Origin: Ruegeria sp. ANG-R
Lineage (GTDB): Bacteria; Pseudomonadota; Alphaproteobacteria; Rhodobacterales; Rhodobacteraceae
Length of the DNA stretch: 64,000 nt
NCBI RefSeq assembly: GCF_000813985.1
Contig: NZ_JWLJ01000006.1
Span: forward strand, 1 to 64,000
Reading direction: 5' to 3'
The first letter of the stretch is position 1, and the number at the start of each line of letters is the position of its first letter. Of the stretch, positions 10,567 to 17,628 are shown in pieces. Below the pieces are notes generated by a model that searched no databases, had not been told where the DNA came from, and saw nothing but the letters and a program-made list of their open reading frames with translations. The position numbers and the translations under genes are program-made.

Positions 10567-11877
10567 ATGGGAACCTTTACCTACAAGAACTCGTTTGACG
10601 ATGACGGAGATGGCGACAACCTGAACGGCGCTTCCGAATTCGGCACAAGCGGCACCGGCCTTGGCGTATTCAACTCTCCCAACTCGGGCGATGGAGACAA
10701 CGAGTTTGTATTTTATTCCGGCGCGGGCGAGGAAAACAAACTCGATCTCAACGCCAACCTGACCGGGACGGACCGGGTGAACTCGTTCACCGCCGAGATG
10801 ACCCTGGATTTTACAACTCGGCCCGGCCCCTGGGGTGATGGTGAATCCGACGGTCTTACGTTCAACCTCGGCGACCCGAGTTCACTGAGTTCGATCGAAG
10901 AACGCGGCGTCTCCACCGGCCTGGCCATTCGCCTTGCCCCTTTTAGCTGGGGCACCACGGGGTACGCGGGCAACGTTATCGAAATCCGCTGGAACAATAC
11001 GATTATCGGCTCAACCACGGTGTCTGACCTCAGCTCGCCTGCAGCTTCTACTTTTTCGGTCTCGGTTGATACGTCCGGGAACGTCTCCGTCAGTTTCGGG
11101 TCGGAAACGGCCAGCGGCTCGATTCCGGGGACAGAGTGGACCAGCACCAGTCAGGACGGTTGGGATTTCCTCATCGCAGGCCGAACCGGGGCGAATGCCG
11201 GTGAAGCCTATATCGACGACATAGACGTAACCGCCAACACGGTATGTTTCGCGGCAGGCACTCTTATCGACACGCCCATAGGCCCGGTTCCTGTCGAGAC
11301 GTTAAGACCCGCAGACATGGTGCTGACGGCCGACAACGGATCTCAGCCGATACGCTGGATAAACACCCGAAAATTCTGCAAGGCACAACTGGAAGCCGCA
11401 ACAAATCTCAAACCCGTCATCATTCGGGCGAACGCGCTGGGGAAGGGGTACCCCGCGTCTGACCTGACGGTCTCGCGGCAACATCGCATCATGGTGCGCT
11501 CGCGCATTGCCGAACGCATGTTTGGTTGCCCTGAGGTTCTGGTACCGGCGGTCAAACTACTGGACCTTCCCGGGGTTTTTGTCGACGCGGAAGCCGACGG
11601 CGTAACCTACGTTCATTTTCTCTGCGACAATCACGAAGTCGTCTTTGCCAATGGCCAGCCCAGCGAGACTCTGCTGCTGGGCGATCAGGCATGTGAGACG
11701 CTTGGTGCGGATGCATTGGAAGAAATTCGGGCCATCTTCCCCGATATCGACATCAGTGATCGGCTCCCGATTTCGGCTAAAGCCATCCCCGACAGGGCCC
11801 GGCTGGGACAGTTCGTGGCGCGCCACCGCAAGAACAAAAAACCCTTCCTGTCCGCCGTCGAGCCCGAGCCAGCCTGA
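10567..11877 (+). CDS. Lectin-like domain plus C-terminal Hint (hedgehog/intein) domain protein
   Basis: Encodes 436 residues. Residues 1-222 resemble an L-type-lectin/concanavalin-like beta sandwich, with an Asp/Gly-rich start (SFDDDGDGDNLNG). A Hint_2-type domain follows: Cys227 in CFAAGTLIDTPIG is the expected nucleophile, His306 (SRQHRIMVRSR) fits block B, and His355 lies in DNHEVVFANG. There is no C-terminal extein, as in other proteobacterial Hint proteins thought to self-cleave or modify the upstream domain. No signal peptide is visible, so export, if any, would be by a type I-like route. GAGGAA precedes the ATG. Confidence 0.85.
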   Translation: MGTFTYKNSFDDDGDGDNLNGASEFGTSGTGLGVFNSPNSGDGDNEFVFYSGAGEENKLDLNANLTGTDRVNSFTAEMTLDFTTRPGPWGDGESDGLTFNLGDPSSLSSIEERGVSTGLAIRLAPFSWGTTGYAGNVIEIRWNNTIIGSTTVSDLSSPAASTFSVSVDTSGNVSVSFGSETASGSIPGTEWTSTSQDGWDFLIAGRTGANAGEAYIDDIDVTANTVCFAAGTLIDTPIGPVPVETLRPADMVLTADNGSQPIRWINTRKFCKAQLEAATNLKPVIIRANALGKGYPASDLTVSRQHRIMVRSRIAERMFGCPEVLVPAVKLLDLPGVFVDAEADGVTYVHFLCDNHEVVFANGQPSETLLLGDQACETLGADALEEIRAIFPDIDISDRLPISAKAIPDRARLGQFVARHRKNKKPFLSAVEPEPA

Positions 11878-12200: not shown

Positions 12201-13394
12201 ATGAATATTCACGAATATCAGGCCAAAGCGCTTCTTCGCAGCTATGGCGCTCCGGTCTCCGACGGTCGCGCGGTTCTGCGCGCCGAGGAAGCCAAATCCG
12301 CAGCCGGTGAACTGGATGGCCCTTTGTGGGTCGTTAAGGCGCAAATCCACGCGGGCGGTCGCGGCAAGGGCTCGTTCAAAGAGGTGGATGCCGGTGAAAA
12401 AGGCGGTGTTCGTCTGACAAAGTCGGTTGAGGAAGCCGCCGAGGAAGCCAAGAAAATGCTGGGCCGCACGCTGGTCACGCACCAGACCGGCCCCGCGGGC
12501 AAGCAGGTCAACCGCATCTATATCGAGGCCGGGTCCGGCATCGAGCGCGAATTGTATCTGGCCCTGTTGGTGGATCGCCAGACCAGCCGCATCTCTTTCG
12601 TCTGTTCGACCGAAGGCGGCATGGACATCGAAGAGGTCGCCGCCGCCACGCCCGAGAAAATCCTGTCCTTCTCGGTTGATCCCGCCACTGGTTATCAGCC
12701 CTATCACGGCCGCCGCATCGCCTTTTCGCTGGGACTGCAAGGCGCGCAGGTCAAGCAATGCGTCAAGCTGATGAGCCAGCTCTACAATGCCTTCGTCGAG
12801 AAGGACATGGAGATGTTGGAGATCAACCCGCTGATCATCTCGGACAAGGGTGATCTCAAGGTGCTAGATGCCAAGGTTGGCTTTGACGGCAACGCGGTCT
12901 ACCGCCACCCCGATATTGCCGAGCTGCGCGACACGACCGAGGAAGACCCCAAGGAGCTGGAAGCCAGCAAATACGACCTGAACTACATTGCGCTGGATGG
13001 TGAGATCGGGTGCATGGTCAACGGCGCCGGTCTGGCCATGGCCACGATGGATATCATCAAACTCTACGGTGCCGAACCTGCCAACTTCCTCGACGTGGGC
13101 GGCGGTGCCACCAAAGAGAAGGTGACCGAGGCGTTCAAGATCATCACCTCGGACCCGCAGGTCAAAGGCATTCTGGTCAACATCTTCGGCGGCATCATGC
13201 GCTGTGACGTGATTGCCGAGGGCGTGGTCGCCGCGGTGAAAGAGGTCGGCCTGCAGGTTCCACTGGTCGTGCGTCTGGAAGGTACAAATGTGGAAAAAGG
13301 CAAAGAGATCATCAACACCTCTGGCCTGGACGTGATCGCGGCGGACAACCTGAAAGACGGTGCCGAGAAGATCGTGAAGGCGGTTAAGGGGTGA
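12201..13394 (+). CDS. sucC: Succinyl-CoA synthetase beta subunit
   Basis: Encodes 397 residues with an N-terminal ATP-grasp domain ([16 protein letters not shown] start, [10 protein letters not shown] glycine loop) and a C-terminal CoA-ligase domain ([15 protein letters not shown] and [11 protein letters not shown]). With SucD it converts succinyl-CoA, nucleoside diphosphate and phosphate to succinate, CoA and nucleoside triphosphate. It is the first gene of the suc operon. Its TGA overlaps a GTG that begins a lipoprotein gene, instead of leading directly to sucD as in typical relatives. Confidence 0.97.
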
Positions 13395-13951: not shown

Positions 13952-13988
13952 ACCCTGCCCTTAGAAATCCAATAAAGGAGAACGCCAA

Positions 13989-14049
13989 ATGGCAGTCCTC
14001 ATCGACGAAAATACCAAAGTGATCTGTCAGGGCTTTACCGGCGCGCAGG
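13989..14049 (+). repeat. Direct repeat, upstream copy: first 61 bp of sucD
   Basis: Bases 13989-14049 equal 14888-14948 except for one mismatch (G at 14043, T at 14942). The match begins exactly at the sucD ATG and ends within codon 21. Leaders before the two ATGs share only short blocks (CAATA and GGAG). The copies are 899 bp apart and bracket the methyltransferase gene. Confidence 0.97.
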
Positions 14050-14144
14050 ATGCACTGGGGACTTGCGTCGGCGGGAGCACCGGGGCCATTCGAATGTTTA
14101 ATACGCGGATGGTTCATATTGCATCAACGGAAGGGTCGAACTGA
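13989..14144 (+). pseudogene. Truncated sucD 5' fragment fused to foreign sequence (51-codon chimeric ORF)
   Basis: The first 18 codons are identical to sucD ([18 protein letters not shown]). After AQ the frame leaves sucD and continues through 31 unrelated codons to a TGA at 14142-14144. It retains a good ribosome site (AAGGAGAACG), probably the original sucD leader. The TGA overlaps the ATG of the methyltransferase gene (TGATG), so translation of the fragment could deliver ribosomes to that gene. It cannot have succinyl-CoA synthetase activity, since all but the first strand of the CoA-binding domain is missing. Confidence 0.85.
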
Positions 14145-14809
14145 TGCGTGAAGGCGTCAGAGACGCGTTCGAACACAAGAACTGGGGCGACAGAAATACG
14201 CCGCGTTCCGGTAGTGGCTCGACGCTTGATGCCACCGCGCCTCTTCGTGGTGCATTGCCTGCGATATTCGAACGCTACTCGGTAAAGACGTTTCTCGACG
14301 CCCCTTGTGGCGATTGGACTTGGATGCAGGAAGTGGACCTGAACGGGGTTCACTATATCGGCGGGGACATATCTCTGGAAGTTGTGGAGTCCGTGAAAGA
14401 GAAACATCAGGCTTTGGGGCGGGAGTTTTTCCATCTGGACATAACATCCGATCCACTGCCCAAGGCTGACCTGATGATGTGCCGCGATTGTCTGTTTCAC
14501 TTGAAATGGTGGTTGAGATGGGAGTTTTTCGAGAACTTCGCCAAAAGCGATATTCCGTATCTGCTGACCACCAAACACCATAACGCACGAAACGCCAAGC
14601 TTCGTGATAACGCGGCTTTCAAGTTATTCAATCCTTGCGCCGCCCCATTCAACTTTCCGGAACCGGTAGAAGAGATAAGCGAAACGGGGCCCTATAATGA
14701 CGACCCCGAATTTCTCCAGACCCGAGCAGGCAGACAGCAACGTTCGGTCGCAATTTGGTCGAAAGAGCAAGTGATTGACGTGCTAAAGCAGCGCGAGACG
14801 AAAACGTGA
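14144..14809 (+). CDS. Class I SAM-dependent methyltransferase, cargo between sucD copies
   Basis: Encodes 221 residues. The SAM-binding motif TFLDAPCGDWTWM is at about 49-61, followed by acidic strand end YIGGDISLE and a motif IV-like LMMCRDCLFHLKWW. The pattern GSGSTLDAT before motif I and DAPCGD are typical of a family often found in polysaccharide or glycosyltransferase loci; the acceptor is unknown. The length fits that family, so it looks complete. Its ATG overlaps the stop of the chimeric sucD fragment, and no other ribosome site is evident. Composition is more AT-rich than the suc genes around it, suggesting acquisition. Confidence 0.8.
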   Translation: MREGVRDAFEHKNWGDRNTPRSGSGSTLDATAPLRGALPAIFERYSVKTFLDAPCGDWTWMQEVDLNGVHYIGGDISLEVVESVKEKHQALGREFFHLDITSDPLPKADLMMCRDCLFHLKWWLRWEFFENFAKSDIPYLLTTKHHNARNAKLRDNAAFKLFNPCAAPFNFPEPVEEISETGPYNDDPEFLQTRAGRQQRSVAIWSKEQVIDVLKQRETKT

Positions 14810-14887
14810 GATCAAGGATCAACTGAATTGCCGCAGCGATGGTTTGTTGCAGAGCTGTGCTAACTTTAAACAATACGGAGGCCTAAC

Positions 14888-14948
14888 ATGGCAGTCCTCA
14901 TCGACGAAAATACCAAAGTGATCTGTCAGGGCTTTACCGGCTCGCAGG
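14888..14948 (+). repeat. Direct repeat, downstream copy: start of intact sucD
   Basis: The 61 bp beginning at the ATG of the complete sucD, 60 of 61 identical to 13989-14049. The new leader here carries its own ribosome site (CGGAGG, nine bases before the ATG). Confidence 0.97.
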
Positions 14949-15769
14949 GCACATTCCACTCTGAACAGGCCATCGCCTATGGCACCAAGATGGTCGGTGG
15001 CGTGACCCCCGGCAAAGGCGGGATGACGCATCTTGACCTGCCCGTGTTCAACTCGGTCCACGAGGCCAAGCATGTGACCGAAGCCAATGCCAGCGTCATC
15101 TATGTTCCGCCGCCCTTTGCGGCGGATTCGATCCTCGAAGCGATTGATGCCGAGATGGAGGTGATCGTCTGCATCACCGAAGGCATCCCGGTTCTGGACA
15201 TGATGAAGGTGAAGCGCGCGTTGGAAGGCTCGAAATCGCGCCTGATCGGCCCGAACTGTCCCGGTGTCATCACGCCTGATGCCTGCAAGATCGGTATTAT
15301 GCCCGGCCACATCCACAAACGCGGTTCGGTCGGCGTTGTGTCGCGTTCGGGCACCCTGACCTATGAGGCCGTGAAACAGACGACCGACGTAGGACTGGGC
15401 CAGTCCACATGTGTGGGCATCGGCGGTGACCCGATCAAAGGCACCGAGCATATCGACGTGCTGGAATGGTTCCTGGCGGATGACGAGACCGAGTCGATCA
15501 TCATGATCGGTGAGATCGGTGGCTCGGCCGAAGAAGAAGCCGCGCAATTCCTGGCGGATGAGGCCAAGAAGGGCCGCAAAAAGCCGACCGCTGGTTTCAT
15601 CGCAGGCCGCACAGCCCCTCCAGGCCGTCGCATGGGCCACGCGGGCGCGATTGTCGCCGGTGGCAAGGGCGGCGCCGAGGACAAGATCGAAGCCATGCGC
15701 GCAGCTGGTATCGTCGTGGCCGAAAGCCCGGCGCAGCTGGGTGAGGCTGTGCTGGAAGCGATTGGATGA
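14888..15769 (+). CDS. sucD: Succinyl-CoA synthetase alpha subunit (intact copy)
   Basis: Encodes 293 residues, normal length. The N-terminal CoA-binding Rossmann domain is followed by the phosphorylated-histidine loop in [13 protein letters not shown], which carries the phosphate between succinyl-phosphate and the nucleotide. Its first 61 bp also exist as a truncated copy 899 bp upstream. It is the only full alpha subunit in the window and pairs with sucC. Its TGA overlaps the ATG of the next reading frame (ATGA). Confidence 0.97.
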
Positions 15770-16512
15770 TAGCTGACCGACCCTCCAAAGGCGCTGAGGG
15801 CAGCGCCCGACCCTGGGTGGGTGCTGCAAGCGCCCTCCCGGGGGGAGGGTCGGGCGCTGCCCGGCGTTGCCGCCGGGCGGTAAGCTTTGTATTTAGCCTA
15901 GCTCTTTGCCTTTGGGTTCCAACAGTTGGGATAGCCGAACAAAACAATCCTCTAAAAACGGTTCTTGATGTTTGTGCAAGTGATGGTTCCACTTTTGAAG
16001 AAACCGTTGCCGAATTTTATACAAAAGGTTGGACTAAAGTTCCTCCTAGCAACCTCGGCACAGCCACCAACGCGATAGGAGACGCGCATTTGTTCTCGGG
16101 CAAAATAACGTTGGAGGACGAGTGGCCTAGGCTAAGGCTCGAAAAACGAAGTCAGGTTGGTAGCCGTGTGAACAGAGCGAACAGTTTTTACTTCCAATCG
16201 GCAACACTGTCTTCGCAAGACAGAAGCAGCTACGTAAATGTTTTCTTCAGAAAGCAGGGAAAAAGGGTGGACTGCATGGCATCCACGACGAACATCCAAA
16301 ACTTAGATGAATTCACCTATTCTATTATTGACCGATCCTCGACGGGAAAGCTTGGAGAACTCAGCGTGGAATGGATAGCTTATTCGGACACTTCTGAGCG
16401 CCCAAACGTGCGAGCAACTCTGTATTTGATCAAGCCCCACGTTCAAGACAGCTTTATAGTTGATCCTCTTCTTGCGCCGGCAGGATTAACTGTCCTCCGG
16501 CATATGAATTGA
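15766..16512 (+). CDS. Secreted protein of unknown function with repeat-derived N-terminus
   Basis: Encodes 248 residues if started at the ATG overlapping the sucD stop, the only in-frame ATG before the signal sequence. Residues 1-37 are translated from a GC-rich palindromic repeat (15798-15862) and its flank; a signal-peptide-like segment ([12 protein letters not shown]...VGIAEQ) then begins at residue 39. The mature part has two cysteines (DVCASDGST and VDCMAST) and no domain I recognise. Downstream of the repeat the gene is markedly AT-rich. The repeat probably inserted at or replaced the original start region, so expression is uncertain. Confidence 0.6.
15798..15862. repeat. GC-rich palindromic intergenic repeat (REP-like hairpin)
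   Basis: Two perfect 17-base inverted arms (GGGCAGCGCCCGACCCT at 15798-15814 and its complement at 15846-15862) enclose 31 bases. These form a second stem of ten pairs with one T-T mismatch around TGCAA. A smaller GGCG...CGCC element follows to about 15880. I recall similar dispersed elements from roseobacter intergenic regions. Only one copy is seen in this window, and it is read as protein in the overlapping frame. Confidence 0.75.
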
Positions 16513-16516
16513 TCTC

Positions 16517-17056
16517 ATGACCTTCTCCGACGCCATCCGCACCTGTTTCTCCAAGTTCTTCACCTTCTCGGGCCGTGCTTCGCGGCCCGAATACTGGTTC
16601 TTTTTCCTGTTCATCGTGATCTGGAACATCATTGCCGGGATCATCGACTGGCAGTTCTTCACTCAGGTTGCAGTAACCGAAACCGAGACTTCCAAATCCG
16701 TTACTGCCACCTCAACAGGCCCGGTGCAAAGCATCGTGAGCCTGATCGTCTTTTTCCCACATCTGGCCGTCGCGTGGCGGCGGATGCATGATACCGGACG
16801 CAGCGGGCTTTATGCGTTGTTGCCGATCCTGCTGATCCTCGGTGCGCTGGGAGTTCTGGTCTTTGGCATCGGCCTTGCCAGTCAGTTCCATGGCGGCACG
16901 CTGGACATCCTGTTTACCCGCGCCACACTTCTGATTGTCATTCCGACACTGCTCATTCTGTTTGTGTCACCCCTTCTGGTTCTGTGGTGGCTGACCCGCC
17001 CCGGCGAACCCGGCGCCAATCAGTACGGTCCCAACCCCTATGAGGTGGCCCCATGA
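16517..17056 (+). CDS. DUF805 membrane protein (first of tandem pair)
   Basis: Encodes 179 residues with four hydrophobic segments. DUF805 hallmarks are visible: FSGRASRPEYWFFFLF (about 17-32), WRRMHDTGRSGLYALLP in the middle and PGEPGANQYGPNP at the end. These inner-membrane proteins have no established biochemical role. It begins 4 bases after the preceding gene and overlaps the next DUF805 gene by four bases. DUF805 genes between sucD and sucA are, as I recall, common in roseobacters. Confidence 0.9.
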   Translation: MTFSDAIRTCFSKFFTFSGRASRPEYWFFFLFIVIWNIIAGIIDWQFFTQVAVTETETSKSVTATSTGPVQSIVSLIVFFPHLAVAWRRMHDTGRSGLYALLPILLILGALGVLVFGIGLASQFHGGTLDILFTRATLLIVIPTLLILFVSPLLVLWWLTRPGEPGANQYGPNPYEVAP

Positions 17057-17628
17057 GTTTTTCTTGGGCTATCAAAACCTGCTTCAAAAAGTATGTGACT
17101 TCCTCGGGTCGCGCGTCACGTGCCGAGTTCTGGTATTTCTGGATTTTCTGCATGCTAGTCATGATCGCCCTAACCATACTTAATACGGTCTTGTTTGGGC
17201 CAAACATCATCGTGACCGAGCAAATTGTGATTGCAAGCAATGGCAATCCACACCTCGTAAAAAACGTCATGGAGTTCTACAATAGCGGGTTGCCCGGCAC
17301 TGTCTTCCTGTTGATTGTAATTGTACCCGGACTCGCGCTTACCTCGCGTCGGCTGCACGACGTAGGATACAGTGCATGGTGGATAGTTGCTCTTGTCGTA
17401 ACCATCGTGGTTGCTTTCTCGACCGCCGTTCTGGGTACGATCGGGTGGTCTGCAACAATTCATGCCTTAACAACCACGGGAAGAGTCGTTGTTAGCGGCG
17501 GCCCTGCCGTTGAACTCGCATTAGTTACAATCGTGGCTTCAATTGTCATATTTGTGGTTTGGCTTTGCACAAAGTTTGAACCAGGCACCAACCAATACGG
17601 TCCCAACCCAACCGAGGTAATCCCATGA
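17053..17628 (+). CDS. DUF805 membrane protein (second of tandem pair)
   Basis: Encodes 191 residues and is paralogous to the previous gene (SSGRASRAEFWYFWIF, SRRLHDVGYSAWW, PGTNQYGPNP). Four hydrophobic segments are predicted. It is more AT-rich than its sister, so the pair may not be a recent tandem duplication. Its ATG overlaps the previous stop, and its own TGA overlaps the sucA ATG (ATGA), so it is translationally linked to 2-oxoglutarate dehydrogenase. Confidence 0.9.
   Translation: MSFSWAIKTCFKKYVTSSGRASRAEFWYFWIFCMLVMIALTILNTVLFGPNIIVTEQIVIASNGNPHLVKNVMEFYNSGLPGTVFLLIVIVPGLALTSRRLHDVGYSAWWIVALVVTIVVAFSTAVLGTIGWSATIHALTTTGRVVVSGGPAVELALVTIVASIVIFVVWLCTKFEPGTNQYGPNPTEVIP

Follow-up and report, generated by a model that had tools for sequence, protein, structure and literature searches.

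The sucC-sucD junction of the marine bacterium Ruegeria sp. ANG-R contains two cargo genes with a copy of the start of sucD placed between them, a layout that probably originates from the fusion of two alleles carrying one cargo each, sucC-lipoprotein-sucD and sucC-methyltransferase-sucD, in which one end was paired by homology and the other joined illegitimately. Two cargos would be present because two single-cargo alleles were fused, and a site-specific recombinase is not needed for this arrangement. The locus was analysed in a stretch of 64,000 nucleotides (positions 1 to 64,000 of contig NZ_JWLJ01000006.1, termed the window in the following), which is part of a contig of 341 kb in an assembly of 41 contigs. 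It was compared to the equivalent region in a survey of 54 genomes of the genus, which includes the genome of the window itself as G000.

In the window, the operon is organized in the order mdh, a Hint-domain ORF, sucC, a lipoprotein-like gene (family F6), the sucD remnant, a methyltransferase gene (family F4), sucD, an ORF of secreted type, two DUF805 genes, sucA and sucB (Table 1). The segment 14888-14948 at the start of sucD is repeated upstream with 60 of 61 identical positions, corresponding to nucleotides 1-61 of the gene, and an ATG opens both copies, as had been claimed in an original prediction made from the sequence of the window alone. The leaders of the two copies differ, with AAAGGAGAACGCCAA preceding the first and CGGAGGCCTAAC the second ATG. 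The same prediction had placed a SAM methyltransferase gene of deviating base composition between the copies and an intact sucD behind the second one. Both statements hold, since the intervening frame has methyltransferase matches in Pfam and PHROG, the GC content amounts to 0.51-0.56 in segments starting at 14000-14600 compared to 0.58-0.65 in sucD and 0.58-0.63 in most of sucC, and the downstream copy heads a complete frame of 293 residues. The GTG start of the lipoprotein-like gene (13391) overlaps with the sucC stop codon and, as judged from its sequence relatives, this gene is to be regarded as variable cargo too, besides the methyltransferase.

Table 1. Features of the sucC-sucD junction in the window.
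Feature	Position	Strand	Basis
sucC, left flank of the cargo site	12201..13394	+	ORF; gene order same in relatives
First cargo, family F6, lipoprotein-like, 186 aa	13391..13951	+	ORF; position shared by F6 relatives in 4 further genomes of the genus
Ribosome-binding site AAAGGAG of the sucD remnant, of a type found at empty sites	13974..13980	+	Leader comparison
sucD 5' remnant	13989..14049	+	60/61 positions shared with the sucD start
Mini-ORF beginning with the remnant, 51 codons	13989..14144	+	ORF; overlap of its TGA (14142-14144) with the methyltransferase ATG
Second cargo, family F4, class I SAM methyltransferase, 221 aa	14144..14809	+	ORF, Pfam, PHROG, alignment
Ribosome-binding site CGGAGG of intact sucD, of a type found in all 6 F4 genomes	14876..14881	+	Leader comparison
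Intact sucD, 293 aa	14888..15769	+	ORF; identity of 97-100% to sucD of the other 53 genomes

The repeat is not a product of chance. When 40-nt pieces of mdh, sucC, sucD, sucA and sucB, taken in 20-nt steps, were compared to three junctions of each of the 54 genomes, a match of at least 29 of 40 positions was obtained solely for the sucD 5' end within the sucC-sucD junction. This was the case in eight genomes including that of the window, and reversed junctions used as control gave no match at this level. A ninth genome, G026, falls below this cut-off, yet its remnant shows an ungapped match of 36/60 to its own sucD start.

Cargo recurs at the sucC-sucD junction in Ruegeria and also elsewhere in the family, with individual genes oriented like the operon being gained and lost at this site. 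Within the genus, the gap between both genes measures 79-85 nt in 18 of the 54 genomes, thus providing the junctions devoid of insert that the original prediction had anticipated in relatives, and 251-1714 nt in the remaining 36, with one cargo ORF in 27 and two in nine genomes. Cargo ORFs were called at a length above 70 residues with those on the minus strand weighted half, so that their co-direction is partly built into the procedure, which favoured the plus strand. Recurrent families include F1, F4, F5, F6, F11, F21 and F23, of which F1 corresponds to glycosyltransferase family 25 (Pfam, 2.5e-19) and F5 and F6 are lipoprotein-like as judged by eye, and a sulfotransferase, an RDD membrane protein and an STM3941-family protein are among the cargos found once. 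The state of the site differs even between very close relatives, for example in G018, G040 and G039. In other genera, the gap spans 4-148 nt in 32 of 79 loci and 347-3140 nt in 47, as determined without ORF annotation in 80 genomes of 80 further genera, of which 79 have sucC in the extracted stretch; these are the best-scoring of 265 genomes with sucD, excluding those already surveyed and G287, G148 and G161 with short contigs. The empty spacer of about 83 nt (e.g. in G053 and G032) carries GGCGGGC/GCCCGCC inverted repeats, which presumably resemble REP elements.

Other junctions of the operon were surveyed alongside. The gaps between mdh and sucC and between sucD and sucA also vary across the genus, and the one between sucA and sucB, for which 53 genomes gave a value, is 2-6 nt long in 52 of them and -4 in the other. 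The mdh-sucC gap extends over 300-4828 nt and contains four extra ORFs in G051; a Hint-domain ORF is located there in the window (10567-11877) and in G009. The ORFs of secreted type at the sucD-sucA junction (15766-16512 in the window) differ between loci. Many contain a GW motif preceded by a cysteine, and they may belong to a single superfamily that has diverged. They are followed by a near-constant DUF805 gene, which in the window is the first of two tandem genes (16517-17628) with 35% identity and is found at the same place in nearly all loci of the genus.

Across the survey, the sucD remnant is tied to the two-cargo state. The best ungapped 60-nt match to the own sucD start reaches 36-59 positions in all nine two-cargo genomes of the genus (G000, G002, G012, G015, G025, G026, G027, G028 and G031) compared to 23-31 in the 27 one-cargo genomes, none of which carries a remnant at the cut-off of 36/60 that was chosen after viewing these scores. 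Outside of the genus, values of 42/60 and 30/60 were obtained for the two-cargo loci of G056 and G057, respectively, and 27-28/60 for four one-cargo loci. In all ten remnant loci, consisting of the nine from the genus and G056, the remnant resides between the two cargos. A repeated sucD start flanking different cargos in other genomes, which the original prediction had put forward as a sign of a recurrent site, thus does occur. The finding of the same layout with other cargos in eight further genomes of the genus and in G056 makes an assembly artefact exceedingly unlikely, as does the match of the upstream half of the window to G028, which extends with 93% identity up to the seam.

The sequences preceding sucD are specific to the respective allele. 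The leader of the intact gene tracks the last cargo, with GGAGGCC found in 6/6 F4 genomes and AAAGGGACA in 12/12 F1 genomes, and the 18 empty sites contain either AGGAGAACGCC or AGGAGAATGCC. The leaders of the remnants belong in part to types that are seen at empty or one-cargo loci, which applies to AAAGGAGAACGCC in the window, G012, G015, G028 and G031 and to AAGGAGAACGCC in G027. That of G002 resembles the leader of G038, which carries F5 as single cargo, and those of G025, G026 and G056 differ.

How two alleles may become joined is best illustrated by G031, which has the least decayed remnant. Its first sucD piece comprises nucleotides 1-134 with 95% identity to the own sucD and continues, with an overlap of 8 nt, into a stretch that matches positions -41 to -4 of its own sucC (87%). 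There follows a spacer resembling the 43-nt sucC-methyltransferase spacer of the one-cargo genome G009 (score 32, 0/300 shuffles as good; no other pair among the 54 compared did so), and subsequently the methyltransferase and sucD. On this order of segments, G031 is best described as sucC-F6-sucD joined to sucC-F4-sucD. Homology-facilitated illegitimate recombination is characterized by one homologous and one non-homologous or short-overlap junction, and the sucD/sucC seam of G031 with its 8-nt overlap is of the latter kind. The left seam of the window lacks homology beyond nucleotide 61 of sucD, and no homologous crossover was located. Since this seam contains neither a sucC tail nor a recognised spacer, its join is read by analogy with that of G031. 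Apart from G031, the sequence following the seam does not match sucD significantly, and its interpretation as decayed sucD was thus discarded.

Several further pairs of genomes diverge at a similar place. The window and G028 share 93% identity over 953 nt up to the seam, where F4 is found in one and F1 in the other. The two-cargo genome G002 and the one-cargo genome G038 are 93% identical from sucC through F5 to sucD nucleotide 59 and divergent thereafter, and G031 matches G027 with 84% over 994 nt to sucD nucleotide 60. The leader downstream of the seam is common to six F1 arrays, where among 15 pairs none of 300 shuffles scored as well in 13, with four and 139 doing so in the other two. These six arrays thus probably go back to one event. 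Conversely, none of the pairs with the window, G027, G031 or G056 was better than 11/300 shuffles. Counting each unrelated leader as a separate event would imply a minimum of five fusions.

Based on these observations, we propose that chromosomal DNA arriving from a relative would pair at one end with its homologous counterpart, in either sucC or sucD, and that its other end would be attached by an illegitimate join at about 60 nt into one of the sucD copies. The upstream sucD start would then be the truncated sucD of one allele, and the downstream one, together with the ribosome-binding site of the methyltransferase allele, would head the working gene. The original prediction had offered capture of foreign DNA by Campbell-type recombination as one explanation. 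Cargo brought in by recombination with sucD left intact remains part of our proposal; a single Campbell insertion does not, as the data fit fused one-cargo alleles. We infer transformation or a gene transfer agent as the route of the DNA, and the single ComEC-type (PF03772) and the single HK97-type capsid (PF05065) match that were detected in a profile search of the genome are compatible with either.

Some findings speak against a fusion. In three unrelated downstream contexts, the window, the F1 arrays and approximately G027, the seam is located at about nucleotides 57-61 of sucD, with G031 (134) alone deviating, and such a near-constant position is not predicted by a random join. Pairs of genomes sharing a cargo are not more alike in the adjoining sucC or sucD flank (24 tests in 46 of the 54 genomes, excluding G014 and seven with other gene lengths). 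In these tests, it was sucC nucleotides 241-480, away from the junction, that stood out (4/400 permutations as low), and a slightly raised similarity beside the junction was seen between empty sites (25 to 35 of 400 permutations). We base no conclusion on these differences. Additionally, G057 from another genus carries two ORFs and no remnant, and none was detected in 50 loci of further genera with a gap above 100 nt, where the best matches reach 23-32/60.

The near-constant repeat of about 60 nt in most two-cargo loci would be accounted for if cargo were placed by an element or recombinase within the initial 60 nt of sucD, with the repeat as attachment site or target duplication. Integrative elements such as SXT at prfC integrate into the 5' end of their target gene and furnish it with a new start, and the window resembles them in the duplication of a gene start around inserted DNA and in the rebuilt host gene. 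Unlike these elements, it carries a one-gene cargo at a site without integrase, and the seam of G031 is found elsewhere with a piece of sucC inside. In agreement with the original prediction, neither an integrase nor a transposase was found among the ORFs of the site (ORF list, Pfam scan). This lack of a recombinase gene, together with the missing repeat in all 27 one-cargo loci, also argues against an integrase-borne element or integron cassette. The order of repeat and sucC piece in G031 is not what target-site duplication would give, and the genome contains no further site for the sucD start at E <0.01 beyond sucD and the remnant copies. Targeted insertion at a conserved gene start, the second explanation of the original prediction, is thus highly improbable.

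As another origin, the two cargos could be an old array that was passed on vertically, in which case other species would have lost cargos and the repeat would be an ancient relic. The leader common to six F1 arrays would fit such a history, and so would the identity of F1, which for 19 of 66 pairs exceeds that of the core genes or deviates from it by no more than one point. Against it stand the unrelated leaders in four of the ten remnants and the number of changes on a rapidly computed tree of mdh, sucA and sucB, the neighbours of the site, with SH-aLRT of at least 95 on 29 of 53 inner branches, which requires at least 13 changes for filled versus empty, six each for F1 and F4, four each for F5 and F6, and at least seven for presence of the remnant. 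It is also contradicted by first cargos that are more alike than the core genes (mdh, sucA and sucB), as for the F6 DNA of the window and G028 (91.2% vs 86.4%) and the F5 DNA of G002 and G038 (92.7% vs 83.4%), which in sum renders such inheritance very unlikely.

Returning to a fusion of alleles, the same comparison bears on the question of which half has arrived. The window-G028 pair is the only one of ten F6 pairs above core identity, and most other pairs of F5, F6 and F4 are below; in G012 and G015, both cargos exceed the core genes (98.5% and 96.1% vs 90.2%). The F1 arrays combine four kinds of first cargo with one shared leader. As some first cargos exceed core identity and four kinds precede one leader, the segment from sucC to the remnant is likely swapped. 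In the window, the newcomer may be the upstream half consisting of F6 and the sucD start, with a likelihood at least equal to that of the methyltransferase half.

The remnant might have been kept because it is useful, its ribosome-binding site and mini-ORF leading ribosomes into the second cargo, which would add to an origin by fusion and which we consider possible, though rather unlikely. A start codon (ATG or GTG) and an open frame over 20 codons are retained in all ten remnants, also at identities of 36/60 and 43/60. In a model of random substitutions the frame-keeping probabilities multiply to 0.0013, to which G025, G026 and G056 contribute most, in a calculation that treats non-independent rows as independent and does not include indels. 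The ribosome-binding sites of the remnants are strong (mean -7.4 kcal/mol, 10/10 at -5.6 or lower), those of the second cargo are at -3.3 or weaker in seven of ten, and random positions average -2.3. In the window and G056 the stop of the mini-ORF overlaps the next start, and the overlap of its TGA with the ATG of the methyltransferase is the layout expected of translational coupling, which makes a role as leader possible. Conversely, substitutions in decayed remnants are mostly non-synonymous and the methyltransferase of the window has a moderate ribosome-binding site of its own (-6.2). Five single F1 alleles without remnant have equally weak sites, for which reason a weak site in front of the second cargo was not accepted as proving coupling.

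More speculatively, and in our view unlikely, the sucD start between cargos could act as a re-usable module that couples translation of the next cargo and provides a 60-nt homology arm for recombinase-free swaps of the first. A core metabolic operon would in that case be an integrase-free cassette platform. Codons 1-20 of sucD are the least variable of 2426 intervals in five genes of the genus (0.066 vs a gene mean of 0.218). Similarly quiet starts were found, in 30 genomes each, for atpD (0.038 vs 0.186), rplB (0.014 vs 0.105) and the ORF following rplB (0.048 vs 0.144), and other ORFs of the atpD and rplB loci lack them. As such starts are shared by other highly expressed genes, no special function is needed for that of sucD, and a special nucleotide element at this position was rejected.

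The methyltransferase of the window matches PHROG 3382 (5.5e-36) and four Pfam methyltransferase families at E-values of 1e-4 to 4e-3, each below its curated cut-off. Its SAM-binding motif region is conserved, with a DxPCGD sequence, which we take to be motif I of class I SAM methyltransferases, invariant in 12/12 aligned relatives. At an identity of at least 68%, F4 is found in six of the 54 genomes, always at the sucC-sucD junction, and the same place was confirmed by context in three Ruegeria atlantica strains and one R. haliotis. The stretch in the window is 76-77% identical to other F4 loci in alignments that include part of sucD. Relatives with 45-53% identity reside outside of the suc operon (G012:C10:44704-45354, G015:C2:310661-311323 and G026:C30:11332-11994), in genomes that all hold F1 arrays within it. 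A phage source was considered in light of the PHROG family and of 33-36% relatives on three IMG/VR contigs, which did not identify a source. For the F6 lipoprotein, Pfam gave no match and NCBIfam none over a cut-off, and its single-sequence fold model (mean pLDDT 34) was set aside. A sequence search for solved structures returned no relatives of either cargo.

Variable cargo at the roseobacter sucCD locus has been known since 2012, and the new part is the seams. Roseobacter operons were described to contain genes of low conservation, located either between sucC and sucD or between sucAB and sucCD (Christie-Oleza et al., 2012, PMC3305630), where SPO_PG006 in the former position of R. pomeroyi is co-transcribed and its protein was detected. 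The cargo of the window belongs to the same locus and genus and fits the description of a poorly conserved gene between sucC and sucD. The parts of that study available to us leave the reason for the inserted genes open, ask whether they are opportunists profiting from high expression, and mention no repeated sucD start, two-allele fusion or mechanism of arrival, compared to the repeat and the proposed fusion described here. The closest mechanism is found in the T6SS immunity-gene arrays of Vibrio cholerae, where, according to the sections consulted, alleles are added at one locus by recombination that is homologous at one end and illegitimate at the other, leaving remains of displaced genes as in the sucC-sucD stacks (PMC5361080). 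Those arrays concern effector-immunity modules at a secretion locus, whereas here unrelated single genes enter an operon of central metabolism and the start of an essential downstream gene is left over. Small variable segments between conserved genes of bacterial genomes, about 10% of them flanked by direct repeats with illegitimate recombination suggested, are likewise short variable DNA. As far as the excerpts extend, they were surveyed within three species (PMC2884548), as opposed to the turnover of whole cargo genes between species at one operon junction.

Our search of open-licence papers found no report of gene-start remnants in such operons and none in which a sucD remnant was recognised. 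Extra frames in nuo operons would provide a precedent, which this search did not confirm.

For the cargo, we infer an advantage in the high expression of the suc operon. The remnants and the seam of G031 are physical traces of cargo stacking, in which alleles were fused and the start of an essential gene was left behind. Through these remnants and seams, the question that was left open in 2012 becomes testable.
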